Assembly: GCA_002699585.1 (NCBI GenBank)
Contig: PABP01000022.1
Coordinates: forward strand, 62,001-126,000
Direction: 5' to 3'
From: Anaerolineaceae bacterium
GTDB taxonomy: Bacteria; Chloroflexota; Anaerolineae; Aggregatilineales; Phototrophicaceae
DNA length: 64,000 bases
Part shown: in pieces, positions 6,349-40,864 of the stretch
Position numbering within the stretch: the first letter of the stretch is position 1
Layout of the letters: each line of letters starts with the position of its first letter
The notes under the pieces: generated by a model
What the model saw: only the letters and a program-made list of their open reading frames with translations
Database searches by the model: none
What the model was told of the DNA's origin: nothing
Program-made: the position numbers and the translations under genes

Positions 6349-6852
6349 ATGCCCAATGAACTAACCCATCTGGATGCACGCGGTCAAGCAACAATGGTCG
6401 ATGTGGCGGATAAACCCGATAGCGACCGCATGGCTGTGGCCGAGGGATTTGTCTATATGCAACCGCAAACCCTGGCGCTAATTGAGCAGGGCGCACTCAA
6501 AAAGGGCGATGTCATTTCGATAGCCCGCATCGCGGGTATCATGGGGGCCAAAAAGACATCCGACCTGATCCCACTGTGCCACCCCTTGCCCCTGACCAAA
6601 GTCGACGTTGAGCTGGAACTGCTACCGGAAAAATCCGCCGTGCGTATCGTGGCCCGCACCCGTACCCTGGGTAAAACCGGCGTAGAAATGGAAGCGCTGA
6701 CGGCGGTTAGCACCGCAGCCCTCACTATCTATGACATGGGAAAAGCCGTTGATCGCGCCATTCGCATCAGCGATATTCGCTTGCTGGAAAAACGGGGTGG
6801 GGTACACGGAGATTACGTTGCCGATGACCAGGAGCCGACCGATGCAGATTAA
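6349..6852 (+). CDS. moaC: Cyclic pyranopterin monophosphate synthase MoaC
   Basis: Second step of molybdenum cofactor synthesis: converts the MoaA product, 3',8-cyclo-7,8-dihydroGTP, to cyclic pyranopterin monophosphate. The 167 residues show the family blocks [17 protein letters not shown] and [19 protein letters not shown], with the catalytic lysine expected in the DMGKAVD stretch. I start at ATG 6349 because a GGAGG lies 6 bases upstream and the protein then begins at the usual family N-terminus ([17 protein letters not shown]). A longer open frame back to 6286 has no matching family sequence. The gene overlaps the next one by 11 bases, so translation is probably coupled. No moaA is in the window. 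Confidence 0.95.
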
Positions 6853-7564
6853 CATTTTGCTTTTCGCTACCCTGCGTGACCTGGCGGGTGTGCGCAACCT
6901 GAACCTGCATATCGCTGCTGAATCATTGACCGTCGCTGACTTGCGCCGCGACCTGACCGAGCGTTACCCGCACATGGCTGATAACCTGGCGGCGGCTTCC
7001 GTGGCTATCAATGAGGAATTCGCCTTTGATGCTGATGCCATCCACGATGGCGACGAAGTCGCTCTGTTCCCGCCTGTCAGTGGGGGCAGTGGCGAACCGC
7101 CGGAAATCTACCTCTTGCCGACTGAACCCATCGACCATGACGAACTTATCGCCTCGATTACGACGCCTGGGACTGGGGCTGTTTGCCTGTTTAGCGGCTT
7201 TGTTCGTGGGGAAACCCAGCGCGAAGGGCATCTGCCCCAGACCGACTATCTCGAATACGAAGCTTACAAGCCGATGGCCATCGCCAAGATGAAACAGGTC
7301 GCTGCTGAAATCCGTGAGCGTTGGCCATTAATTGAAGGCATCGCCATCGCCCAGCGCATTGGTAAGCTCACTGTTGGCCAGAACACGGTTCTGATCGCCT
7401 GTTCATCACCACACCGTGACGATGGCTGTTTTGAAGCCGCCCGCTATGGCATTGATCGCCTCAAGCAAATCGTCCCTGTCTGGAAAAAAGAAGTCGGCGC
7501 AAATGGCGAAACCTGGATCGAGGGCGAGCATACCCCTTCGGAAGCCGACCGCAGTCATAAATAG
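6842..7564 (+). CDS. Fused molybdopterin synthase MoaD-MoaE (MoaX-like)
   Basis: Both subunits of molybdopterin synthase in one 240-residue chain. Residues 1-82 are a ubiquitin-fold MoaD with the C-terminal VSGG at 79-82. Residues about 88-232 are MoaE ([52 protein letters not shown]). In the two-subunit enzyme the terminal Gly-Gly of MoaD must be free to be adenylated and thiocarboxylated. Here it is followed directly by SGEPPE, so proteolysis after Gly82 is probably required, as reported for mycobacterial MoaX. The ATG at 6842 is 11 bases inside moaC. The MoaE lysine expected at the active site is in the VWKKEV segment. Confidence 0.92.
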
Positions 7565-28964: not shown

Positions 28965-29918
28965 CTATGCCATCACTGAACAAAACGACTTCGCAATCCG
29001 TATCGTCTCAAAGTGAATATCGACCACATCATCGACATTTTGCGCATAACCGCCACCCATTGTCACGGCTACTGGGATGTCTTCGTTGCGCAGCATGCTC
29101 AGCACCAACCGATCCCGTTTAGCCAGCCCCGCCTTGCTTAAAGCGAGCTTGCCTAGCTTGTCATCCACAAACGGGTCCGCTCCTGATTGGTAAATCGCCA
29201 GATCAGGGTCAAATACGCTCAGCACACGTTCGAGTGCCGTTTCCAGTGTGCTTAGATAATCCGCGTCACCTGTGCCCTCTACCAGCCCAATGTCCAGATC
29301 GCCGTTGATCTTCCTGAATGGGAAGTTCCTTTCCCCATGCAGCGAGAACGTGAATATCGTTGGGTCATCGCGGCAGACATCCGCTGTGCCATTCCCCTGA
29401 TGCACATCACAATCGATCACCAGTACTTTTTCGACAAGGCCCCGGTGTTGCAGTGCTCGCGCGGCAATCGCTGCATCGCAAAACACGGAAAATCCCGCGC
29501 CGAAGTCACGCCCCGCGTGGTGCGTGCCCCCTGCGAGATTCGCTGACGTGCCCTCGGTCAAGGCGCTTATGGCTGCTCGTATCGTTGCGCCCGATGACCG
29601 CCGTGACCGTTCGACCATTTCCAGCGTCCAGGGGAAGCCAATGCGCACTTCTTCTTTGCGGCTGAGCGTACCCGTCATCAGCTTATGTAGATACTCCGGC
29701 GTGTGGCAGCGCAGAATATCCTCGTCAGTGGCGGCCTCCGGCACAATCAGATCATCTGGCTCCATCACGCCGCTGCTGATGAGTCGTTCTCGCAGTAGCT
29801 TGTACTTCACCATCGGGAAGCGGTGGCCGGGCGGCAAGGGCAGCACAAAAATATCAGTGTAGTACGCTTTCATATCTTTCGCATAGTCAATCAGTGAATG
29901 TGGTTTAAGTATTGTCAT
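28965..29918 (-). CDS. Histone deacetylase family (AcuC/HDAC11-like) zinc hydrolase
   Basis: 317 residues (302 if it starts at the second ATG, 29873, where the conserved domain begins at YYTDIFVLPLPPGHRFP). The arginase-deacetylase fold shows the tandem histidines in GGTHHAGRDFGAGFSVFCD, zinc ligands in VIDCDVHQGNGT and SGADPFVDDKLG, and the glycine motif GGGYAQN. Bacterial members remove acetyl groups from proteins (acetoin utilisation AcuC), polyamines or small amides; the substrate cannot be assigned. It is flanked on both sides by near-identical palindromic repeats. Confidence 0.9.
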   Translation of the reverse strand: MTILKPHSLIDYAKDMKAYYTDIFVLPLPPGHRFPMVKYKLLRERLISSGVMEPDDLIVPEAATDEDILRCHTPEYLHKLMTGTLSRKEEVRIGFPWTLEMVERSRRSSGATIRAAISALTEGTSANLAGGTHHAGRDFGAGFSVFCDAAIAARALQHRGLVEKVLVIDCDVHQGNGTADVCRDDPTIFTFSLHGERNFPFRKINGDLDIGLVEGTGDADYLSTLETALERVLSVFDPDLAIYQSGADPFVDDKLGKLALSKAGLAKRDRLVLSMLRNEDIPVAVTMGGGYAQNVDDVVDIHFETIRIAKSFCSVMA

Positions 29919-29996: not shown

Positions 29997-31478
29997 TCAA
30001 ACTCCATCTTCCAAAATCATCTCGGCAGCGACCTTGCCCGATAATGTCACCATCGGGACGCCGCCGCCAGGGTGGGTTGTTCCGCCAGCGAAGTACAGCC
30101 GTTTAATGTGCTGACTGCGATTATGCGGTCGCAAAAAGGCCGTGAACTTCTTGTTTGCTGATGGGCCATACAGTGCCCCGCGCCACGCCCCGGACATATC
30201 CTGTAAATCAAGCGGTGTCAAAATATGCTCGCTGATAATCTGCTCCCGAACATCAAAACCACGTTCAGCCAACACCTGCAAAATGCGATCCCGATAAGTG
30301 GCTTTTTCTTGTTCCCAGTCGATGCCATCGGATAGGGCCGGCGCATTCACCAGCACGAACCAGTTTTCCATGCCGTCTGGCGCATGCTGCACGTCCGTCT
30401 TTGAGGTGATCGCTACATAAATTGTGGGGTCCTCTGCGTGAATTTGCCGTTTGAAGATAGCCTCAAATTCAGCCCGGTAATCGTCGCTGAAGAAGATATT
30501 ATGGTGCGCCAGTTCGGGATGTTGCTTGTTGATGCCTAACATCAGCACAAACCCGGAGCAGGACGGTTCGTAATTGCTCAGTCGGGCAAGCTGCTGACGA
30601 TCAATGATGCCCGGTTCGACCAGATGGTTGTAGGTGGTCGTCACATCAGCATTAGCGATCACCGCTCGCGCCGCGACTTCTTGGCCATCTTGCAGCCTGA
30701 CGCCCATCGCCTGCCCATCCTCGACCCTGATCTTCTCAATAGGCGCGTTGCACGCGATGACCACGCCTAATTCCTCAGCCAATCGGCGCATGGCCTCAGC
30801 AATCTGGTAGATGCCCCCCTGTGGGTACCATACCCCGCCCGTTAGCTCCACATGCGCAATGACGTTGAGCGTCGCCGGGGCCTGATATGGACTACCGCCC
30901 ACATAGGTCGCAAAACGGCCTAGCAATTGCCGCAAATAGGGCGATCTAACATGGTTGTTGATCGCCTGCTGCATCGTCCGCAGCGGATCAGCATGCAGCC
31001 ATTCACCCATAGAAACGCGCAAAAAACTTGCTGGGGTGGGCGGCTTGTCATAGATGAATACCGGCCCCGTCACGCGATGGATACGCGCCGCATAAGCCAG
31101 GTAGCTCAAATAGCCCTCGACATCGCGCGGCTCAATGGCCTCAATCGCGTTGGCCATCTGGCTCAAATCACTGACTACATCCAGTTGTGTGCCATCGGCG
31201 TAAAAATAGCGCGTCAGCGGGTCCAGTGGCAGCAGCGTCAGATAGTCATCCAGTTGACGACCTGCCGCCGCGAACAAGTCCTCGAATACGTGGCGCATGG
31301 TGATAACCGAGGGGCCCGTATCCCAACGAAAGCCATCGGCCTCGTATTGGCTCATCTTCCCGCCGACCTGGGCGTTTTTCTCGTAGATATGCACATCGTA
31401 GCCAGCCACTCGCAGCCGGATCGCAGCCGCCAGCCCGCCGATGCCTGCGCCAATGATGACAATTGGAGCCTCAGCCAT
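29997..31478 (-). CDS. CrtI/CrtD-family carotenoid oxidoreductase
   Basis: 493 residues of an FAD-dependent carotenoid desaturase-type enzyme. The dinucleotide fold is VIIGAGIGGLAAAIRLRVAGYDVHIYEKN, given here as two parts: VIIGAGIGGLAAAIRL and DVHIYEKN. RWDTGPSVITM follows, and the C-terminal FAD block is RLYFAGGTTHPGGGVPMV. It is one of three CrtI-family paralogues in the island and is the last gene of the CruF-containing operon, so a modification of the hydroxylated end (desaturation or oxidation) is more likely than phytoene desaturation. ATG 31478 has GGGGAG 8 bases upstream and overlaps the glycosyltransferase gene by 8 bases. Confidence 0.85.
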   Translation of the reverse strand: MAEAPIVIIGAGIGGLAAAIRLRVAGYDVHIYEKNAQVGGKMSQYEADGFRWDTGPSVITMRHVFEDLFAAAGRQLDDYLTLLPLDPLTRYFYADGTQLDVVSDLSQMANAIEAIEPRDVEGYLSYLAYAARIHRVTGPVFIYDKPPTPASFLRVSMGEWLHADPLRTMQQAINNHVRSPYLRQLLGRFATYVGGSPYQAPATLNVIAHVELTGGVWYPQGGIYQIAEAMRRLAEELGVVIACNAPIEKIRVEDGQAMGVRLQDGQEVAARAVIANADVTTTYNHLVEPGIIDRQQLARLSNYEPSCSGFVLMLGINKQHPELAHHNIFFSDDYRAEFEAIFKRQIHAEDPTIYVAITSKTDVQHAPDGMENWFVLVNAPALSDGIDWEQEKATYRDRILQVLAERGFDVREQIISEHILTPLDLQDMSGAWRGALYGPSANKKFTAFLRPHNRSQHIKRLYFAGGTTHPGGGVPMVTLSGKVAAEMILEDGV

Positions 31479-32595
31479 GATGTGCGCTCCCCGTTTGCTG
31501 TTGAATAACGCGGCCTTTCCAGCGTGGACCGCCGCTGACATGCCACCGTAATGCCTGTACGCTGATGCGCGTCATTAGTAGCACGGAAACGGGCATGAGC
31601 AAGCTATCTCTGATCCGCTGATGGGTCGCCGCCGCCGAAAGCGCCCGAATGCCGAATGCCAATCCAATTGCCAGCAGACCGTATAAACGTAAGTTGGCAT
31701 CAAACAGCCACACATAGGGCAGTAAAAACACAGCCCAATGGAAGATCGTCGCTAATACCAACGCCACAGCGCTCCCATACCCCGCCAGGATATTCTTGGC
31801 GAAGCCATCGCGCACAGCAGGCCAGCTATCGTACATTCGGCATGTCACCAGCCCGTTGCCATCGGCCATGCGCAGTCGCAGACCCGCTTGCTTAACCAAT
31901 CGTGCCTGACTGACATCATCCAGCACGTTGTTGGCGACCGCCTCGTGTCCACCGATTTTGTCGTATGCTGACCGTCGCCAAAGCATACATTGGCCATTCG
32001 CCGCCCCGAAAATGGCCAGCGGTGCATAGTGCGTCATCACAATCGGCAGATAGCCCATAATGACCATCGCAATGAGTGGCACAGTTAGCCGCTCGCCCCA
32101 TGTGACCGTCTGCTGCGTTGGCCACACCGACAGCAAATCGGCCTCCGTTTGCTGCATCATGCCCATGACCGCCGCCAATCCCTGCGGCTGCCAATGAACG
32201 TCTGAATCTGTGAAGAGCAAAAAATCGCCCTCAGCCTGCTGTGCCAATTGATGACAAGCCCAGCTTTTGCCCATCCAGCCTGCGGGTAAATCGGACCCTT
32301 TGATGATCGTCAGACGCGCATCGCCTTTAGCGGCCTTTTGCGCTATATCGGCTGTCCCATCCTCAGAATGGTCATCGAGTAGGGTCACGCTGTAGTTGGG
32401 GTAGGTCTGTTGGAGCAGGGCACTGATTGTTTGGCTGATAATCGCTGCTTCGTTGCGAGCTGGAACGAGCACATGGACGTGTGGCGTCTTTGCGGTCATT
32501 TCAGGCTGTAGCCGCTTGAATAGCAGCACATTGCTGATCGTTGTCAGCGCGATGATGCACAGCGCGACCAGGACGAATACAACGAAAGCCATCAT
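31471..32595 (-). CDS. Membrane glycosyltransferase family 2 (CruG-like)
   Basis: 374 residues. A membrane helix at about 3-25 is followed by a GT-A domain: VHVLVPARNEAAIISQTISAL, LLDDHSEDGT, LLFTDSDVHW (DXD-type metal site) and, near 230, NNVLDDVSQARLVKQAG. Then come about three C-terminal membrane helices and LRWHVSGGPRWKGR, a motif usual for carotenoid and hopanoid glycosyltransferases. The position in an operon with CruF fits CruG, the 2'-O-glycosyltransferase of the myxol pathway. It overlaps the acyltransferase gene by 4 bases (ATGA) and the CrtI-like gene by 8. Confidence 0.85.
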   Translation of the reverse strand: MMAFVVFVLVALCIIALTTISNVLLFKRLQPEMTAKTPHVHVLVPARNEAAIISQTISALLQQTYPNYSVTLLDDHSEDGTADIAQKAAKGDARLTIIKGSDLPAGWMGKSWACHQLAQQAEGDFLLFTDSDVHWQPQGLAAVMGMMQQTEADLLSVWPTQQTVTWGERLTVPLIAMVIMGYLPIVMTHYAPLAIFGAANGQCMLWRRSAYDKIGGHEAVANNVLDDVSQARLVKQAGLRLRMADGNGLVTCRMYDSWPAVRDGFAKNILAGYGSAVALVLATIFHWAVFLLPYVWLFDANLRLYGLLAIGLAFGIRALSAAATHQRIRDSLLMPVSVLLMTRISVQALRWHVSGGPRWKGRVIQQQTGSAHHG

Positions 32596-33209
32596 GCCGC
32601 TGCGGTCCGTTCTTTAGGCAGGAAGGGTAGCCAGCGTTTGATGGTCGGTAGCCGATTCAGCCCCTGCCGATGCCGAAATAGCACAATGGCGAAGTTCCCC
32701 AGCCAGATCGCTAAAAACGGCAGATTGTCAGGCCGTGTCAGCAGCAAATAGAGCAGGGCATATAGCATGACCATGACCACAACCCAATTGCTTTCTTTCA
32801 GCGACCGGAACCAGTAAACAAGCATCAGGCCCATCACAATCGGCATCTCGAAAATCGTCAGCCCGATCCATGTGCCGAACGTAACCGCCACCGCTTTGCC
32901 GCCATTGAAGCCTAAAAACAGGCTGAAAGCATGTCCGGCGATGGCCGCCAACGCAATCGGCACAATGCCCATATCGCGGATGCCCACAATCCAATAGGCA
33001 ATGCCCACCGGGAACAGGCCCTTGGCCCCATCCAGGCACACCGCCACAATCAGCCACAACTTGCTGCCACTCGCCCGGTAGACGTTGGTCGCGCCGGGGT
33101 TGCCATCACCATAGTCGCGTATATCCACGCCAAAGAACCATTTGCCCAGCAAGACCGAATAGGGCACGCTGGCGATGAGATACGTTGCGACGGTCCATAG
33201 AGCGATCAT
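32592..33209 (-). CDS. PlsY-family acyltransferase
   Basis: 205 residues with about five membrane helices. PlsY motifs are clear: GDGNPGATNVYRASG (motif 1), KGLFPV, and AGHAFSLFLGFNGGKAVAVTFG (motif 2/3). The canonical enzyme transfers acyl from acyl-phosphate to glycerol 3-phosphate. This copy sits inside a carotenoid operon, between cruF and a carotenoid glycosyltransferase, overlapping the latter by 4 bases. It may therefore acylate the carotenoid sugar, the step done by CruD in green phototrophs, or it may simply be the cell's phospholipid enzyme. The choice cannot be made from this window. Confidence 0.88.
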   Translation of the reverse strand: MIALWTVATYLIASVPYSVLLGKWFFGVDIRDYGDGNPGATNVYRASGSKLWLIVAVCLDGAKGLFPVGIAYWIVGIRDMGIVPIALAAIAGHAFSLFLGFNGGKAVAVTFGTWIGLTIFEMPIVMGLMLVYWFRSLKESNWVVVMVMLYALLYLLLTRPDNLPFLAIWLGNFAIVLFRHRQGLNRLPTIKRWLPFLPKERTAAA

Positions 33210-33219
33210 GGCATGGCCT

Positions 33220-33999
33220 TCATCGCTGTCGCCAATAAGCGATCAGCATGATGCCACCCATCGCCACGCTGCCGACCACTGCCGGACCAATCTGCCCCCA
33301 GAACACGCCCAGGCCGACAGTCTGCAAAAACCAAACCAGCCCATAGACCGCTGCCAGCGGCATCGTCGGTAGTTCGCTTGGCCGCGCGATGACTGTAATC
33401 ACGGCGCTGACGAGCAGCCAGCCGCCGTAATTCACCAACGGAATGCCGAAATAGGCTCCCGGCTGGTCCCATATCCAGAAGCCCCAACCGTCCATCTGTG
33501 GATCAAGGAACAGATCCCAGGCGGTTAGGGCCACCGCACTGACTCCGACGAAAGCAGCTTTTTTAGCGAGCGTGTCTTGTCTGCCAACGATCAATTGCGC
33601 CATCACCCAGGCTGAGGGTAGCAGCATAAACCATGCCACCGGGATCAACAGCGGAACGCCGCCAATTTGCGGTTGCAGCGCATCCGTATAGTGATAATTG
33701 CCAAAGGGGATGCCCGTCTGATGCCCCATGAACTCGGCTGCCCAGCCAATCCCGCTAACGATGGCGAAGGTCACGAGTGTTTTGGACCATCCCCAGGCGG
33801 CTTGTACGGCCACAGCGACAGCGACTGCCTGCACAATAGCTGCCATCGTCACCCAACCGGGAATAATGGCATCGCCAGCGACCCAGCGGGCAATCGGCAG
33901 CGCAATCATCACTAAGGCCCATAAAGCAATCAGCCCATACTGAACGCGATTTTCGTGCAGTTGGGCTGGTTGACGTAAAAAACGTGCGAATACAGTCAT
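33220..33999 (-). CDS. cruF: Carotenoid 1',2'-hydratase CruF
   Basis: Adds water to the psi end group of gamma-carotene or lycopene derivatives. 259 residues with about seven membrane helices. The family (DUF422) blocks are AEFMGHQTGIPFGNYHYTD (about 88-106), GGVPLLIPVAWFMLLPSAWV, and AWDLFLDPQMDGWGFW (about 161-176), followed by YFGIPLVNYGGWLLVS. It lies 9 bases after the tocopherol-cyclase-like gene and 10 bases before the PlsY-like gene, so it is in the middle of the operon. Confidence 0.92.
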   Translation of the reverse strand: MTVFARFLRQPAQLHENRVQYGLIALWALVMIALPIARWVAGDAIIPGWVTMAAIVQAVAVAVAVQAAWGWSKTLVTFAIVSGIGWAAEFMGHQTGIPFGNYHYTDALQPQIGGVPLLIPVAWFMLLPSAWVMAQLIVGRQDTLAKKAAFVGVSAVALTAWDLFLDPQMDGWGFWIWDQPGAYFGIPLVNYGGWLLVSAVITVIARPSELPTMPLAAVYGLVWFLQTVGLGVFWGQIGPAVVGSVAMGGIMLIAYWRQR

Positions 34000-34008
34000 G
34001 TGCAGGGG

Positions 34009-35007
34009 TTACTCTGTAGGCAGGCGCTTTATTAAGGCAGCCAGTTGATCGATTTGTAGCGCGCCCAGGGTGCCTTTGCCACTGAACAAGGGCATATTGC
34101 GCACGCCGTCGAGCGCATTTATCTGGAATTCGTACTCAGCTTGCAATGACAATCCAACTTCGCGGTCCATGTCGTCGCTGCCTGCAACCGTTATCAGACC
34201 CGTGTCTGGGCGGGTGGCCTTGATGGTGAGTTCATGTTTGTTTGTATACAGCACCCAATCTACCGAACTATCGGTCACATCAAACCGGGCGACTTTCGCG
34301 CCATTATAGTTGCCAAATGTGAATAGCTGGTTATCGTGCCGCAGCCCGACGCTAAAGGCCGCAAATTCGCTGTCGAACGGCGTCGGTGCCACATACGCGA
34401 CACCCGACAAACTGGTCTCCGGCATATCAAAGTTGTTGCACTGCATCCAAACGGATGCCTTGGGATAGGTGACCCCCCACTCATTCTTGAGATAGCCGTG
34501 ACCGCCGCTGAAGTCGACCGTTTTGCCATTCAGCGTCAGTTCGCCATCGATAATATGGTCGAAGCTTAGTACCGAGTGGCGATACTTCATATTTGGGAGC
34601 CAGCCTGTTTTACCCATAGCACCTGGCGAGAACAATGTGGTCGGCCACGGCTTGAGGTTACCAAAGCTCAAGTTGCCCTGTGCGCTCCCGAACTCATTAT
34701 CGATGTTGAGGCTGAGCGCGTCGGCGCTGAAGCTGCATTTGTCCATCCGTAAGTCGAAGCCATTCGGTTCGGCTTCAAACGACCCCATACGGAAATAGGT
34801 CGATTCCCCAGTGATGCCGTCCAAAACTTGAACATAAGCATGGTTGTTGCTGCCACCGACGTTCATAAAAACGCCAGGGATGATGGCGTAAACAGCATCT
34901 TGGTTGGCGCTAACCAGTTTGTAAGTCCAGCTTTCAAAAAATGGTGCGGAATGTGTGTGACCGTGATACCACTCTGGATTCATCACACTCTGGAAAAAGT
35001 TAAGCAT
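34009..35007 (-). CDS. Tocopherol cyclase-like (calycin) protein
   Basis: 332 residues without signal peptide or membrane helix. The N-terminal WYHGHTHSAPFFESWTYKLV and the central DFSGGHGYLKNEWGVTYPKA, with WMQCNNF after it, match the tocopherol cyclase / CrtC-AttH type of lipocalin-like double barrel. These domains bind prenylated lipids; plant VTE1 cyclises prenylquinols and CrtC hydrates carotenoids. In this operon a second hydratase, a prenylquinol cyclase or a carotenoid-binding role are all possible. Its start overlaps the hydrolase gene by 8 bases. Confidence 0.78.
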   Translation of the reverse strand: MLNFFQSVMNPEWYHGHTHSAPFFESWTYKLVSANQDAVYAIIPGVFMNVGGSNNHAYVQVLDGITGESTYFRMGSFEAEPNGFDLRMDKCSFSADALSLNIDNEFGSAQGNLSFGNLKPWPTTLFSPGAMGKTGWLPNMKYRHSVLSFDHIIDGELTLNGKTVDFSGGHGYLKNEWGVTYPKASVWMQCNNFDMPETSLSGVAYVAPTPFDSEFAAFSVGLRHDNQLFTFGNYNGAKVARFDVTDSSVDWVLYTNKHELTIKATRPDTGLITVAGSDDMDREVGLSLQAEYEFQINALDGVRNMPLFSGKGTLGALQIDQLAALIKRLPTE

Positions 35008-35842
35008 AGGCTGCCCCTAGGCGGTTATCTTGAATAAAAGCATCCACGGCGTCGGCAACGGCAGGCCAGCCGGGTTGGTCAGGTTCGATCAACGAGTGAT
35101 CGCTATCGACTTCAACATAGGTCACAGGCCCGGGTATACGCTCAGCGACCTGGCGCGTTAGATGCGGCAGCACCAGTTCGTCGCGTGTTCCCTGGACAAT
35201 GAGTGTGGGCACTTGGATTGTCGGCGCATGACTGAACCCATTTTGCCCTGCGATGCGCACCTGGTCAATGACCCGTGTTGGCATTTTGAAATCTTGTAAT
35301 GCCTTGATCGTTTCCGGGTCATCGAGATCAAGCGTTGGCATGATCTCATGGATATTCGAGCGCATCATCGGTGATTCCAGATTCACATCCAGCAGCTTGA
35401 TAGGTCGGAACGATGGGATCAGCCACTTGAGCGCCGGTAGCGTTTTCCACAGAACATGGTCGATCTTCCAGAACGGGGCCAGCAAGATCAGCGCATCAAT
35501 GGGATACTTGGCTGCCAGTGCCAGCGCAATCGCACCGCCCATGGAGTACCCCACGAAGATAGCCGGCTTATGCGCGGTCACTAGCCGCTGCAATCGTGAT
35601 TGTATGGCAACACACCAATCGGCATAGCAGGTTTCCGGCAGGTTGTCGATCTGACTGCCAAAACCCGGCAGCAGCGGGACATCCAGCGTCCAGCCTTGTG
35701 GCCTCAGATGTGTGGCCAGTGTCCGCATATCGCCTGGATGGCCTGGGAACCCATGAACCAGTAACATCCCCCCGCCGTTGGTGCCTTCCCACTTAAACGG
35801 CTGGTAATGCTCACCCTGGTATGCCGCGCCAAAATTGAACAT
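35000..35842 (-). CDS. Alpha/beta hydrolase, monoacylglycerol-lipase/esterase-like
   Basis: 280 residues with the fold start LLVHGFPGHPGDM, the nucleophile elbow GYSMGG (Ser100), Asp in VQGTRDELV (about 218) and His in DSDHSLIE (about 246). It is cytoplasmic, with no leader. Overall it resembles carboxylesterase Est30 and bacterial monoacylglycerol lipases. It is the first gene of the minus-strand carotenoid operon and overlaps the next by 8 bases; it might remove or transfer acyl groups from carotenoid esters, which is inference from position only. Confidence 0.85.
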   Translation of the reverse strand: MFNFGAAYQGEHYQPFKWEGTNGGGMLLVHGFPGHPGDMRTLATHLRPQGWTLDVPLLPGFGSQIDNLPETCYADWCVAIQSRLQRLVTAHKPAIFVGYSMGGAIALALAAKYPIDALILLAPFWKIDHVLWKTLPALKWLIPSFRPIKLLDVNLESPMMRSNIHEIMPTLDLDDPETIKALQDFKMPTRVIDQVRIAGQNGFSHAPTIQVPTLIVQGTRDELVLPHLTRQVAERIPGPVTYVEVDSDHSLIEPDQPGWPAVADAVDAFIQDNRLGAAYA

Positions 35843-36014: not shown

Positions 36015-36098
36015 CATTCCTTTCTTAGCTTGATTTCATCCTGTGCTATGACCTAAGAGCGATAACAGATATAGTCTAATTTTCACGAAAGTTTGAAC

Positions 36099-37634
36099 AT
36101 GTCGAAAGTTGTAACCATTGGTAGTGGCTTTGGCGGTCTTGGTGCGGCGATTCGCCTCGCAGCCCAAGGTCATGATGTAGAAATATTCGAAAAGCGCGAT
36201 AAACCCGGTGGTCGGGCTTACACGTACGAGATGGACGGATTCAAGTTCGATGGTGGCCCGACGGTTCTCACAGCCCCTTTCATGTTTGATGACCTGTGGG
36301 AAGTCGCTGGCAAGCGTCGTGAGGACTATTTTGAGATGGTCCCCTGCGATCCCTACTATCGCATCTTCGACGCCAACAAAAATCACTTTGACTATAACGG
36401 CGACGAGGACTTCATCCTCGATCAAATCGCCAAATTCAACCCGGCGGACCGTGAAGGCTACCAGCGCTTTATGGGCACGACCCAGGCTATCTTCGAGAAG
36501 GGTTTTATCGAACTGGCGGATAAGCCCTTCCTGCACTTCACCGATATGCTCAAAGTCGCGCCCGACCTCATCAAGATGCAGTCCTACCTGAGTGTATATC
36601 GGTACGTGTCGCAGTTCGTTAGCAACGAATTCCTGCGCCGCGTTTTCTCATTCCATCCGTTGCTGATCGGTGGCAATCCCTTCGATGCACCTTCGATTTA
36701 TGCAATGATTCACTATCTGGAACGCGAATGGGGCATCTGGTACGCCAAAGGCGGTACGGGCGCGCTGGTGAACGCGATGGTACGCCTGTTTGAAGACCTC
36801 GGTGGTAAGCTGCACCTCAACACCGAAGTTGACGAGATCGTCGTTGGTAACAAACGGGCTACGGGCATTCGTCTGGGGGATGGCACCTTTATCCCTGCCG
36901 ATCATGTCGTCGCCAATGCGGATGTGGGTTTTGTCTACAACAACATGATCGACAAGAACCAGCAAAGTCTGTATCTGCGCAGCAAGATGCGCCTGATGAA
37001 ATACAGTATGTCGCTTTTCGTTATCTATTTTGGCACCAAGCGCCAGTATCGTGATGTCGGCCTGCGCCATCACAACATCATCCTGGGGCAGCGTTATAAG
37101 CATTTGCTAGAGGATATCTTCCAGAAGAAGCTGCTCTCAGACGATTTCTCGTTGTATCTGCACATGCCGACCATGACAGATTCCTCGCTTGCGCCGGAAG
37201 GTCATGAGAATTTCTATGTGCTTTCGCCTGTGCCGCACCTCGGTTCCGGCATCGACTGGACCAAAGCTGCTAAACCCTACCGCGATGCCATCATGCAATT
37301 CTTAGAAGACAACTATCTGCCGGATTTGCAGGAAAACATCGTCACGGAGCACACTATCGACCCGCTGCACTTCAAAGACACGCTCAATAGCCGCATGGGG
37401 GCCGCCTTCTCGGTACAGCCCATTCTGGCGCAGTCAGCCTGGTTCCGACCGCACAATCGCTCGGAAGACTTTGAGAATCTCTATTTCGTTGGCGCGGGCA
37501 CCCATCCCGGGGCAGGTCTGCCCGGTGTGTTATCTTCTTCAATCATCGTTCAGGATCTCATCGGCCCGGCCCACAGCACGGTTAAAGCGCCGCGCTCGAT
37601 GACGACCTCACAACCCATAAAGGCGACTTCATGA
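36099..37634 (+). CDS. crtI: Phytoene desaturase
   Basis: Converts phytoene to lycopene or neurosporene. 511 residues: FAD fold at the N-terminus ([37 protein letters not shown]), [13 protein letters not shown], the middle [20 protein letters not shown], and the C-terminal CrtI signature [19 protein letters not shown]. Of the three CrtI paralogues this one has the most typical sequence and is directly coupled to crtB by a 4-base ATGA overlap, so it is the likely desaturase of the core pathway. ATG 36099 is preferred over TTG 36093. Confidence 0.93.
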
Positions 37635-38593
37635 GTTTGTTGCAACCACCTCCCTGGGAAATCCGGCTGTTGACGGCAGCGACAGAAGCCCTCGACAGTC
37701 AGAAGCTCACGCTGCATCATCCGGTCGATAGCCCGGAGTTGAGTGATGCTTATGCTTATTGTGAGCAGTTGACGCGCCGTCATAGCCGGACGTTTTTCCT
37801 CGCATCGGAACTGCTGCCCAGGGAAAAGCGGCGTGCGGCGCGTGCTCTGTATGCTTTCTGTCGTATCACCGATGACATCGTCGATGCGCCGGGGCGTACC
37901 AATCAGGAGCGCGAAAGTGATTTATGCGCCTGGGAGGACATGAGCATGTCCACGCTGCCGGTGCAGAGTTCGCAGGTCAGCCTGGCCTGGAATGATGCCC
38001 AGCGTCGTTTTCGGATTCCGCGCGGTTATGCCCATCAACTCATTGAGGGCTGTGCCCGCGACATCGGCCATACTCGCTACGAAACGTTCGCTGACTTGGC
38101 CGAATATTCCTATGGCGTAGCATCTACCGTAGGCTTGATGGCTATGCATATTATCGGCTTTGAAGGTGAAGAAGCGCTGCCTTATGCTGTACGGCTGGGT
38201 GTTGCCCTCCAAATGACTAACATCCTGCGCGATGTCGGCGAAGATTGGCGCAATGGTCGCGTTTACTTGCCCCAGGACGAAATGCGCCAGTTCGGCGTGA
38301 CAGAAGATCAGATCGCGGCTGGCCACGTTAACGACCAGTGGCGGCGCTTTATGGCTTTCCAGATTGAGCGCAATCGTCGCCTGTATCAGCAATCGCTCCC
38401 TGGGATTGGGTTGTTAGTTCGTGATGGCCGTTTTGCCATTGCCGCTGCTGCCCGGCTTTATGAATCCGTCCTTACCGATATTGAGTCCTCCGATTATGAT
38501 GTGTTCTCACGTCGGGCACATATCAGCGCTGTGGGTAAGCTGGTACGTCTACCACGCATCTGGTGGCAGGCCCGGACAGCCCAAGTAAGCTAA
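37631..38593 (+). CDS. crtB: Phytoene synthase
   Basis: Joins two geranylgeranyl diphosphates to phytoene, the committed step. 320 residues: [13 protein letters not shown], the first aspartate-rich motif [16 protein letters not shown] (about 75-90) and the second [18 protein letters not shown] (about 197-214). The N-terminal 35 residues before the conserved domain are extra. It overlaps crtI and precedes a lactate dehydrogenase gene by 24 bases. A squalene-synthase function is less likely because of the partner crtI. Confidence 0.95.
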
Positions 38594-38617: not shown

Positions 38618-39571
38618 ATGAAAATAGGCATTGTTGGTAGTGGATTGGTCGGTGCAACCGCCGCTTATGCGATGGTCATGGGCGGGGTCGGTCGCGAAAT
38701 TGTCCTCGTTGACCTCAACCGTGAGCGTTCGCAGGCAGAAGCCGATGACCTGTACCATGCCGTACCCTTCGCATCGCCCTTAGAAATCACGGCTGGTTCC
38801 TACGAAGACCTCAAAGGCTGCAAAGTCGTCATCATCGCTGCTGGCGTTGGCCAGAAGCCCGGAGAAACACGTCTGCAACTGTTAGGACGCAATGCGGCTG
38901 TCTTTAAGCAAGTTGTGCCCGCTGTGGTCAACGCTGCGCCAGATGCCATCCTCGTCGTAGCGACCAACCCCGTCGATGTCATGACCCATTTAACGGCCCG
39001 CTATGCCGCTGAACTCGGCGTGAGTTCACAGCGCGTACTCGGCAGTGGTACCACCCTGGATACGGCCCGTTTCCGGGCGTTATTGGCCCGTCATGTCGGC
39101 GTCGATTCGCGTCATGTGCATGCTTACGTCATTGGCGAACACGGTGACAGCGAAGTGCTGGCGTGGTCGCAAGCGGCTGTGGGTGGCGTGCCGCTGCTGC
39201 AATTCTGTGATGATCGCAGCATTCCCTGGAACGAGAACATCAAGCAGGGCATTGAAGACGGTGTGCGTAATGCTGCCTATCACATCATCAATGGCAAAGG
39301 CGCAACCTACTATGGTATCGGCAGCGCCCTCGCACGCATTACCGACATCATCCTGCACGATCAACGCTCGATTTTGACCATCTGCAACCCAGAATCCAAT
39401 ATCGCAGGCATTGAAGATGTCACGGTGGCTATGCCGCATTTGCTGGGTGGCGAGGGCGTCATTGGCGAGCATCACCCCCTGAACCTGACTGATGGTGAGC
39501 AGCAAGCCCTGCATGATAGTGCTGCCCTCATCAAAAACCTTATCACTGACCTGATTGAACAAGGTGCATAG
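38618..39571 (+). CDS. ldh: L-lactate dehydrogenase
   Basis: 317 residues of the NAD-dependent lactate/malate dehydrogenase family: [14 protein letters not shown] (NAD fold), [16 protein letters not shown] with Gln before Lys (the lactate-type specificity residue, where malate enzymes have Arg), [10 protein letters not shown], and [13 protein letters not shown] with the catalytic His. GGGGA (SD) lies about 5 bases before the ATG. It lies inside the carotenoid operon, between crtB and the lycopene cyclase, with 24- and 5-base gaps, so it is probably co-transcribed although its reaction is unrelated. Confidence 0.93.
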
Positions 39572-39576
39572 GCCCT

Positions 39577-40425
39577 ATGACCTACTTTGCATTCCTGGCA
39601 ATCTTCCTGGGTATCCCGCTTGTCGTGCTCAGCCTGCGCACCATCGCAGACTATCATCGCGGCCACTGGATGCCGACAGCGCTAAATGCCTTCAAGCCCT
39701 GGGTTGTGCTGCTGGGTCTGTGTATTGTGGCGCTTATCTACACCACGCCCTGGGACAACTACCTCGTGGCGACGGGTGTTTGGTGGTATGACCCGCTGTT
39801 GGTGAATGGCCTTGTCCTGGGTTACGTGCCCATCGAAGAATATACCTTCTTCCTGGTCCAGCCTGTGATGACGGGCTTGTTCACGCTCTGGCTGATGCGC
39901 AGCCTGCCCTTGAACCCGCAGCCCGCTGACCAACTCACAATCCGCAAATGGGCGACAGTCATCGTCGGCCTGATATGGCTGGCCAGCGTGATACTGCTGG
40001 GCCTTTCGCTCAGCACTGAGGCATTCCGCCCCGGCACCTATCTGGCCCTGGAGTTGTCCTGGGCGCTCATTCCTGTTCTGATTCAATTGGCCTTTGGCGC
40101 GGATATTCTATTGCGCCATTGGCGTATTGTCTTTGCAGGCATTGCCATTCCGACGCTTTACCTCAGCTTTGCCGATGCCATCGCCATCAATGCCGGGACC
40201 TGGACCATCGACCCGGCACAATCGACGCATATTTTGCTAGGCGGCATCTTGCCGATTGAGGAATTCGTCTTTTTCCTGCTGACCAATACGCTGGTTGTCT
40301 TTGGCCTGACACTCGTCCTGGCAGAGGAAAGCCAGTCACGGGCGCGTCGTTTGCAGCAGTTGCCCCTCGTGGGCCGATTTTTTAGTCTCTTGTTACCAGG
40401 CCCCGATGTGGCCTTAGAAAGATAG
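39577..40425 (+). CDS. Lycopene cyclase, CrtYc-CrtYd fused type
   Basis: 282 residues, a tandem duplication with about seven membrane helices. Repeat 1 has PWDNYLVATGVWWYD and GYVPIEEYTFFLVQPVMTGL; repeat 2 has DAIAINAGTWTIDP and GILPIEEFVFFLLTNTLVVF. The PIEE/PxEE glutamates are the proposed catalytic acids. This is the actinobacterial heterodimeric (CrtYc/CrtYd) and archaeal/fungal type joined into one chain, not CruA or CrtL. Together with the CruF hydratase it suggests that only one end of lycopene is closed. The gene lies 5 bases after ldh and 4 before the next. Confidence 0.92.
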   Translation: MTYFAFLAIFLGIPLVVLSLRTIADYHRGHWMPTALNAFKPWVVLLGLCIVALIYTTPWDNYLVATGVWWYDPLLVNGLVLGYVPIEEYTFFLVQPVMTGLFTLWLMRSLPLNPQPADQLTIRKWATVIVGLIWLASVILLGLSLSTEAFRPGTYLALELSWALIPVLIQLAFGADILLRHWRIVFAGIAIPTLYLSFADAIAINAGTWTIDPAQSTHILLGGILPIEEFVFFLLTNTLVVFGLTLVLAEESQSRARRLQQLPLVGRFFSLLLPGPDVALER

Positions 40426-40429
40426 TTCC

Positions 40430-40864
40430 ATGAATATCTGGCAGTTCCAACATATGCTCTCGCGTCGTTTACAAAAATGGGCCATTGTTAGCATCGGCAG
40501 CGGCCTCCTGATGCGCTTCGGTAGCCCATTCTATAAGGGCATCGGCGCTCAATTTATTGGCTGGGGCGCGATCAATGCGGCGATTGCCTTATTTGGTCGC
40601 AATAGCGCCGATAATCGTGCCGCTGACATACCCAATCCCGGCCTGCTCAGCGTCAAAGAAAAAGAAACCAGTAATCTGCGTAAGCTGCTGATGGTCAATG
40701 CTGGCCTGGATGTCTTATACGTGCTGTTTGGTCTGCGCATGGCCCGCCGCGATAAAGGCGACGGTGTTCGCCGTGGTAACGGCCTCGGCATCGTGATTCA
40801 GGGGGCATTCCTGCTCATCTTCGACTTGCTGCATGCCAGTGGTCTACCCGATCCTGAAGACTAG
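40430..40864 (+). CDS. Small integral membrane protein, DUF6992-like
   Basis: 144 residues with three hydrophobic segments (about 18-34, 40-58 and 85-103) plus a C-terminal one near 120-135. Segments such as GLLMRFGSPFYKGIGAQFIGWGAINAAIALFG and LMVNAGLDVLYVLFGLRMARR are typical of a small family often seen near carotenoid genes (given here as separate motifs: FYKGIGAQFIGWGAI; NAGLDVLYVLFGL). Function unknown; perhaps an accessory protein for the cyclase. It is the last gene of the plus-strand carotenoid operon. Confidence 0.7.
   Translation: MNIWQFQHMLSRRLQKWAIVSIGSGLLMRFGSPFYKGIGAQFIGWGAINAAIALFGRNSADNRAADIPNPGLLSVKEKETSNLRKLLMVNAGLDVLYVLFGLRMARRDKGDGVRRGNGLGIVIQGAFLLIFDLLHASGLPDPED

Follow-up and report, generated by a model that had tools for sequence, protein, structure and literature searches.

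A PlsY-family protein with a changed glycerol-3-phosphate site, encoded between cruF and a glycosyltransferase gene, as candidate carotenoid-glycoside acyltransferase in an Anaerolineaceae bacterium

The carotenoid glycosides of Roseiflexus and Herpetosiphon are reported to occur as esters with fatty acids (PMC3368417), and the carotenoid glycoside acyltransferase named in Chloroflexus, Herpetosiphon, Rhodothermus and Thermus is CruD (PMC4155588, PMC3368417, PMC5822342, PMC4021367). The carotenoid gene cluster of an Anaerolineaceae bacterium (assembly GCA_002699585.1; genome of 6.7 Mb, 96% complete) carries, between cruF and a family 2 glycosyltransferase (GT2) gene, a member of the PlsY family, i.e., the acyl-phosphate:glycerol-3-phosphate acyltransferases. 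What acceptor does this PlsY-like protein acylate, and could it stand in for CruD? The stretch of DNA analysed (the window) is 64,000 nucleotides long and comprises bases 62001-126000 of contig PABP01000022.1 (C36 in our numbering); positions given below are those of the window. We propose that the PlsY-like protein (32592..33209, minus strand) probably esterifies the carotenoid sugar from acyl phosphate, in the place of CruD.

The gene has an ATG start and encodes a protein of 205 amino acids, in which PF02660 is the only Pfam domain (128.3 bits, cut-off 24.1); the PlsC-type domain PF01553 with the HX4D motif of CruD is absent. Against the NCBIfam PlsY equivalog TIGR00023 the protein scores 105.8 bits, below the cut-off of 137.2. 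The predicted structure is of high confidence (predicted local distance difference test score, pLDDT, 93; predicted template modelling score, pTM, 0.87), and its only PDB matches at E<=1e-3 are PlsY structures (5xj5-5xj8, Foldseek TM 0.78-0.83). The upstream neighbor is cruF, encoding a carotenoid 1',2'-hydratase (33220..33999, minus strand; PF04240, 146.5 bits; three NCBIfam CruF models match, all below their cut-offs), which is separated from the plsY-like gene by 10 bases. Downstream, the start of the GT2 gene (31471..32595, minus strand; PF00535/PF13506/PF13641) lies inside the end of the plsY-like gene, the two overlapping by 4 bases (ATGA). The product of this partner gene is HpnB/CruG-like (HpnB 178 bits, CruG 130 bits, both below cut-off); a structure model of it from the single sequence reached a poor pLDDT of 49 and was set aside. 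The initial annotation had described a full-motif PlsY between cruF and a glycosyltransferase gene with a 4-base overlap; the family, the position and the overlap hold, but the motifs are altered (GDGNPGATN and HRQG) and the score is below the equivalog cut-off.

The altered motifs concern the acceptor. The phosphate of glycerol-3-phosphate (G3P) is clamped in the Aquifex PlsY by S35, R45, K104 and N180, the 2-hydroxyl of G3P is contacted by S142 and H177, and the acyl phosphate is held by H92, T41 and the 104-107 backbone loop (PMC5700162). The mutants S35A, N180A and N180D of that enzyme retain 4.8%, 4.6% and 3.3% of the activity, with Km (Michaelis constant) for G3P raised about 10-fold, 19-fold and 22-fold, respectively, and H177F retains 0.3%; the loss in N180D is explained by repulsion of the G3P phosphate, and S35D is absent from the mutant set (PMC5700162). 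Motif 1 of the window protein reads GDGNPGATN versus GSGNVGATN in Aquifex PlsY, and motif 3 reads HRQG versus HREN. Two of the four clamp residues are thus replaced, Ser35 by Asp (codon 33105..33107, minus strand) and Asn180 by Gly, which by pairwise alignment is Gly183 of the window protein (codon 32661..32663, minus strand), while R45 and K104 are kept. The acyl-phosphate site is present (H92, T41 and the GGK loop), as are N37 and H177. The negative charge added at position 35 should repel the phosphate of G3P in the way proposed for N180D, and the Asp, Trp and Asp/Glu residues found around the acceptor site of the window protein and its relatives would suit a sugar. The G3P pocket of PlsY has been called invariable, Asp is found at position 35 in 2.7% of 7,288 homologues (PMC5700162 Table 2), and no explanation of these Asp35 homologues was found in the accessible part of the same source. 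Since the mechanism proposed for PlsY has the acyl phosphate itself accept the proton and needs no protein base (PMC5700162), another hydroxyl could in principle replace that of G3P.

The gene arrangement is conserved. CruF was found in 29 of the 61 genomes of the family and order, including that of the window, and the 28 other cruF loci were compared (L089, whose contig ends 4 bases after cruF, was left out of the linkage counts, and L068, whose contig also ends, out of the count of PlsY-GT2 pairs). A plsY-like gene directly follows cruF on the same strand, at a distance of 9-128 bases, in 26 of the 27 loci that could be judged; the exception is L077, with a PlsY-GT2 pair 4.7 kb away on the opposite strand. 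GT2 follows PlsY in all 26 loci in which the contig continues. A genome of the same genus (G400) has the same cluster, with a PlsY 77% identical to that of the window. As the cruF-plsY-GT2 linkage is conserved across genera and families, it does not reflect one chance insertion, and insertion of a plsY gene into the operon by chance was ruled out by the linkage in 26 of 27 loci. The residues at the altered positions are shared as well: all 27 cluster PlsYs of the relatives have D35, and none has N180, where G, D or E is found instead (L086, read by eye as D35, A at 45 and D at 180, is kept in these counts).

The initial annotation had asked for a second plsY elsewhere in the genome, preferably near plsX, since a sole copy would speak against a new role. 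There are two PF02660 genes in total, and the other (L001; genome G000, C7:398546-399127, 148.6 bits) has an intact G3P phosphate clamp (S35, R45, K104, N180) and scores 137.4 bits against the PlsY equivalog, just above the cut-off of 137.2. Its expected neighborhood was not borne out, the single-copy plsX being on contig C27. Of the 29 genomes with CruF, 26 carry at least two PF02660 genes, versus 3 of the 32 without it (Fisher p 9e-11, a value inflated by the relatedness of the genomes). Those with CruF and a single PF02660 copy are G432, G435 and G451, the last with its cluster cut by a contig end. In each of the three genomes with at least two copies and no CruF (G408, G452, G457), one extra copy is a D35 variant adjoining GT2, and those of G452 and G457 are near crtB, crtI and crtYcd. 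None of six cluster copies (five slightly shortened) passed the equivalog cut-off, versus three of five clamp-intact copies.

The slot of CruD in this cluster appears to be empty. CruD was said beforehand to be of a different family, which is correct: it is of the PlsC type, and other Chloroflexota have a domain of this type fused to CruF or encoded nearby. The Thermus plasmid pTT27 carries a PF01553 gene between the lycopene cyclase gene and a GT2 glycosyltransferase gene, which by gene order we take to be TT_P0061, the CruD of PMC4021367, and trd_1162 of Thermomicrobium roseum is a CruF with an acyltransferase domain proposed to acylate glycosyl groups (PMC2615216). When PF04240 was searched in 400 genomes of the phylum, 138 gave a match at E<=1e-10, and 79 CruF stretches, about one per genus among the matches listed, were examined (L325 is outside this count). 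Fusion of CruF to a PlsC-type domain was found in 11 of the 79, ten of them confirmed by Pfam and one (L300) by a home-made profile; all ten scanned with Pfam are PF04240+PF01553 proteins (L268, L269, L281, L285, L291, L309, L314, L315, L319 and L323). A separate PlsC-type gene is present in 13 stretches (3.9 kb away in L261) and a stand-alone gene for a fusion-type acyltransferase in four, giving a PlsC-type total of 28/79; a PlsY with D35 is present in two (L250 and L303), and both kinds together in none. The CruF-PF01553 fusion thus recurs in Chloroflexota beyond the T. roseum case (PMC2615216).

With either profile, no PlsC-type gene was detected in the stretches of the 28 relatives or in the 80 loci of the wider PlsY search described below. 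The window genome has three PF01553 genes, on C35, C28 and C3, none of them within the carotenoid cluster. No close CruD was found in the whole genomes of the window and the 28 relatives, where two CruD-type profiles peaked at 33.8 and 31.6 bits, versus 414-429 and 353-356 bits in positive controls (for each profile, two genomes that had supplied rows to it); the best score in the window genome, 21.7 bits, fell on its best PF01553 gene. The terms acyltransferase, acylation and CruD are absent from the main text of Klassen 2010 (PMC2889829).

The Asp35 proteins form a subfamily. In a FastTree phylogeny of 184 PlsY proteins, built after masking columns 35 and 180, a single branch (local support 100) separates the D35 (117) from the S35 (67) proteins. 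Rows shorter than 150 amino acids and near-identical rows were left out, including the misaligned row L058/L086/L192, and because of a long-branch warning (L012, L018, L019, L148) the deep order of the tree is unsure. The site table comprised the 103 D35 proteins with K104; the 14 D35 proteins that lack K104 are in the tree but not in this table. P38 is present in 103/103, N at 180 in 1/103, and W in 97/103 at residue 142 of the window protein, which lies two residues away from Aquifex S142. Among the S35 proteins (n=66, without Aquifex), N180 is present in 63, R45 in 66, K104 in 58 and L at the place of the Trp in 60; F at the place of H177 is common to 29 of them. Another 11 D35 proteins (L007, L010, L013-L017, L020, L147, L150 and L151) have R104, with I or L at 177 where aligned, and are near GT2 in 11/11 and near crtB in 7/11 cases.

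To survey the distribution, the cluster-PlsY alignment was scanned against the genomes of 84,980 species, which gave 346 stretches with relatives, of which the best 80 were examined. These 80 loci are all from metagenome-assembled genomes (MAGs) or uncultured organisms, mostly Anaerolineae; a few are labelled as other phyla, perhaps through binning errors. Among these best 80 of 346, cruF is immediately upstream of PlsY in 49 and GT2 immediately downstream in 64. Of the 82 PlsY open reading frames (ORFs) in these loci, 81 show D35, the remaining row being misaligned, and none has N180. Fusion of PlsY to CruF, GT2, a cyclase or a PlsC-type domain was found in none of three ORF sets, and a plasmid search for D35 relatives gave weak matches, with 27-43% identity among the matches listed (20 of 55 records). 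In L240, a heliorhodopsin gene (6663-7463; PF18761, 336 bits) lies shortly upstream of the D35 PlsY-GT2 pair and is separated from it by a single small ORF. Two Dehalococcoidia MAGs have PlsY-GT2-PlsY-GT2-GT2 runs with no carotenoid genes in the stretch (L171:6244-10978 and L181:6191-11013); in both, the PlsY encoded first carries M104, Y180 and R177.

The reading that a PlsY acts as carotenoid-sugar acyltransferase, first reached from gene position, is supported, though indirectly, by what was computed here: the PlsY fold, the kept acyl-phosphate residues, the changed G3P-phosphate residues, the conserved linkage, the second, clamp-intact plsY and the lack of a close CruD among the genomes searched. 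The residue changes, which had gone unnoticed, are the strongest evidence for the role. Given crtB, crtI, crtYcd, cruF, crtD and GT2, one would expect a monocyclic 1'-hydroxy carotenoid as the aglycone, resembling those of Roseiflexus and Herpetosiphon. We propose that CruF would hydrate the psi end of the monocyclic carotenoid, that the neighboring GT2 would glycosylate the hydroxyl so made, and that the PlsY-like protein, an acyl-phosphate-dependent O-acyltransferase of PlsY fold that would no longer use G3P, would move a fatty acyl group from PlsX-made acyl phosphate onto one of the sugar hydroxyls. This would yield a fatty acid ester of a carotenoid glycoside, located in the membrane, and the enzyme would substitute for the PlsC-type CruD of other carotenoid-ester makers. 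Several lines of sequence evidence support a change of acceptor. We infer that the new acceptor is a sugar and that the sugar is on a carotenoid, with Asp35, Gly183 (Asp or Glu in most relatives) and Trp142 shaping the acceptor site; the carotenoid sugar is the most economical, if unproven, reading. For the D35 subfamily as a whole, the balance of the evidence leans towards a switch of acceptor from G3P to the sugar moiety of a glycolipid that the partner GT2 makes.

Several observations weigh against this proposal. Among the best 80 loci, 22 have no carotenoid gene in the stretch (some stretches are short), and GT2 follows PlsY in 18 of them; no CrtI-like match exceeds 65 bits in 15 of the 22 genomes (MAGs, which may be incomplete), and each of the other seven has one above 200 bits elsewhere. 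The loci L197, L200, L203 and L207 have cruF followed by PlsY without an adjacent GT2. Some wider D35 relatives depart from the residues kept in the window protein, with R45 changed to K in 19/103 and T41 kept in 60/103. D35 is part of one of the two search patterns, so that the 81/82 count is not independent evidence. Neither kind of acyltransferase was seen in 49 of the 79 CruF loci of the phylum. The C7 copy has F at the place of H177 (and V at that of S142), the change at 177 being one that nearly abolishes the activity of Aquifex PlsY, so that the housekeeping label of this copy is inferred; G435 (92% complete) and G432 (63% complete) show the cluster copy only. GT2 is the steadiest partner of the D35 PlsYs, the carotenoid context being frequent and not universal, and this is the main reason why we rate the carotenoid-ester proposal as probable and no higher.

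Four other explanations were considered. It is possible, though rather unlikely, that the D35 PlsY and GT2 make an acylated glycolipid other than a carotenoid and lie in the carotenoid operon for shared regulation only. The 22 loci without a carotenoid gene, 18 of them with GT2, the 15 genomes without a clear CrtI and the PlsY and GT2 genes repeated in a row in L171 and L181 would fit such a role, and the scope of the enzyme may indeed extend to glycolipids in general given the former. On the other hand, PlsY in this lineage is tied in 26 of 27 loci to cruF, the gene for the maker of the hydroxyl to be glycosylated, the gap in the window being 10 bases, and elsewhere in the phylum CruF itself is fused to an acyltransferase of the PlsC type.

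That the gene encodes an ordinary glycerol-3-phosphate acyltransferase caught in the operon, the alternative already considered in the initial annotation, is improbable. PF02660 membership, the retained K104, R45, H92, T41 and H177, the two incomplete relatives in which no other copy was seen and the F177 of the C7 copy agree with it; it is opposed by D35 and the lack of N180 in 27/27 relatives' cluster copies, by the clamp-intact copy in the same genome, by linkage conserved across families and by the equivalog scores (0/6 versus 3/5). Judged on residues and copy number, and with the caveat of F177 in the other copy, a housekeeping role for the cluster copy is unlikely. Likewise improbable is direct acylation of the carotenoid or another polyol by the PlsY-like enzyme without a sugar, for which one could cite the cruF-plsY loci without adjacent GT2 and L172, with crtYcd-plsY beside a P450 gene; yet GT2 is the commonest neighbor (64/80, and 26/26 in the lineage), and the 1'-hydroxyl that CruF produces, a tertiary one, is difficult to acylate. 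Finally, it is very improbable that another cluster gene, e.g., that of the alpha/beta hydrolase at 35000-35842, encodes the acyltransferase and PlsY feeds or regulates it: the hydrolase gene is present in 21/28 related loci, and a faint resemblance to an ornithine-lipid O-acyltransferase was seen (19.6 bits, below cut-off), but the gene is missing more often than PlsY (present in 27/28) and its best families are plain hydrolases.

Compared with known systems, the window protein resembles PlsY (YgiH/YneS, PF02660, structures 5xj5-5xj9) in fold, size, H92, T41, the K104 loop and N37, and differs in S35D, in Gly for N180 (D/E in most relatives) and in its sub-equivalog score, the D35 proteins also having Pro38 and, in most cases, Trp142. 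It would resemble CruD in the reaction proposed, and does so in position, beside GT2 and carotenoid genes with cruF or a cyclase gene as neighbor, whereas CruD is of an unrelated family, PF01553 with the invariant H and D of HX4D. The donor of CruD is an acyl-thioester, as opposed to the acyl-phosphate proposed here. With the T. roseum trd_1162 fusion (PMC2615216) the window locus shares an acyltransferase directly after CruF; the second domain of such fusions is PF01553, an assignment taken from 10/10 other fusions of the phylum rather than from trd_1162 itself. The product would also be of the same kind, an acylated carotenoid sugar, as that of CrtO (PF18927), a protein of a different family. 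CrtO is the glycosyl-4,4'-diaponeurosporenoate acyltransferase of staphyloxanthin synthesis; a search of the genome for it, run without a positive control and of little weight, gave no match.

The plsY-like gene is part of a tight minus-strand run from 35842 to 29997, in the order alpha/beta hydrolase, tocopherol-cyclase-like, cruF, plsY-like, GT2 and crtD-like. The alpha/beta hydrolase gene (35000..35842; PF12146, 68.7 bits) is first, followed by the tocopherol-cyclase-like gene (34009..35007; PF14249, weak at 36 bits; in 17/28 related cruF loci) upstream of cruF. The last gene (29997..31541) encodes a CrtD-like 1-hydroxycarotenoid 3,4-desaturase (crtI_fam 475 bits, above cut-off; CrtD 435 bits, below cut-off); judged from the junction with GT2, its likely start is an internal ATG near 31478. 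It is followed by a gene of the histone-deacetylase family (28965-29918; PF00850), which is found in 11/28 related loci and adjoins crtD in nine. A divergent run on the plus strand consists of crtI (phytoene desaturase, 36093..37634; crtI_fam 591.6 bits), crtB (phytoene synthase, 37631..38593; PF00494, 259.9 bits), a lactate dehydrogenase gene (38618-39571; TIGR01771, 339 bits; in 5/28 related cruF loci), crtYcd (lycopene cyclase, 39577..40425; TIGR03462, 118 bits, above cut-off) and a gene for a DUF6992 protein (40430-40864; PF22503), a candidate carotenoid-pathway protein found in 17/28 related cruF loci.

To our knowledge, neither a PlsY-fold enzyme that acylates anything but G3P nor an acyl-phosphate route to carotenoid glycoside esters has been described before. 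No report of PlsY acting on a carotenoid or glycolipid was found in the accessible part of the open-licence literature, most subscription journals lying outside this scope, and the "additional roles" of PlsX/PlsY described in E. coli concern G3P and lipid balance, with no new acceptor in the accessible part of that paper (PMC11633183). The D35 PlsYs stand apart as a subfamily that often has a glycosyltransferase as partner and, in many genomes, is accompanied by carotenoid genes. If our proposal is true, the window protein would be a PlsY-fold enzyme with a non-G3P acceptor, and it would provide an acyl-phosphate route to carotenoid glycoside esters that replaced CruD independently. Genes annotated as PlsY in such clusters would then be misnamed, PlsX-derived acyl phosphate would have a second biosynthetic use, and acylated carotenoid glycosides would be predictable for many Anaerolineae-type Chloroflexota.

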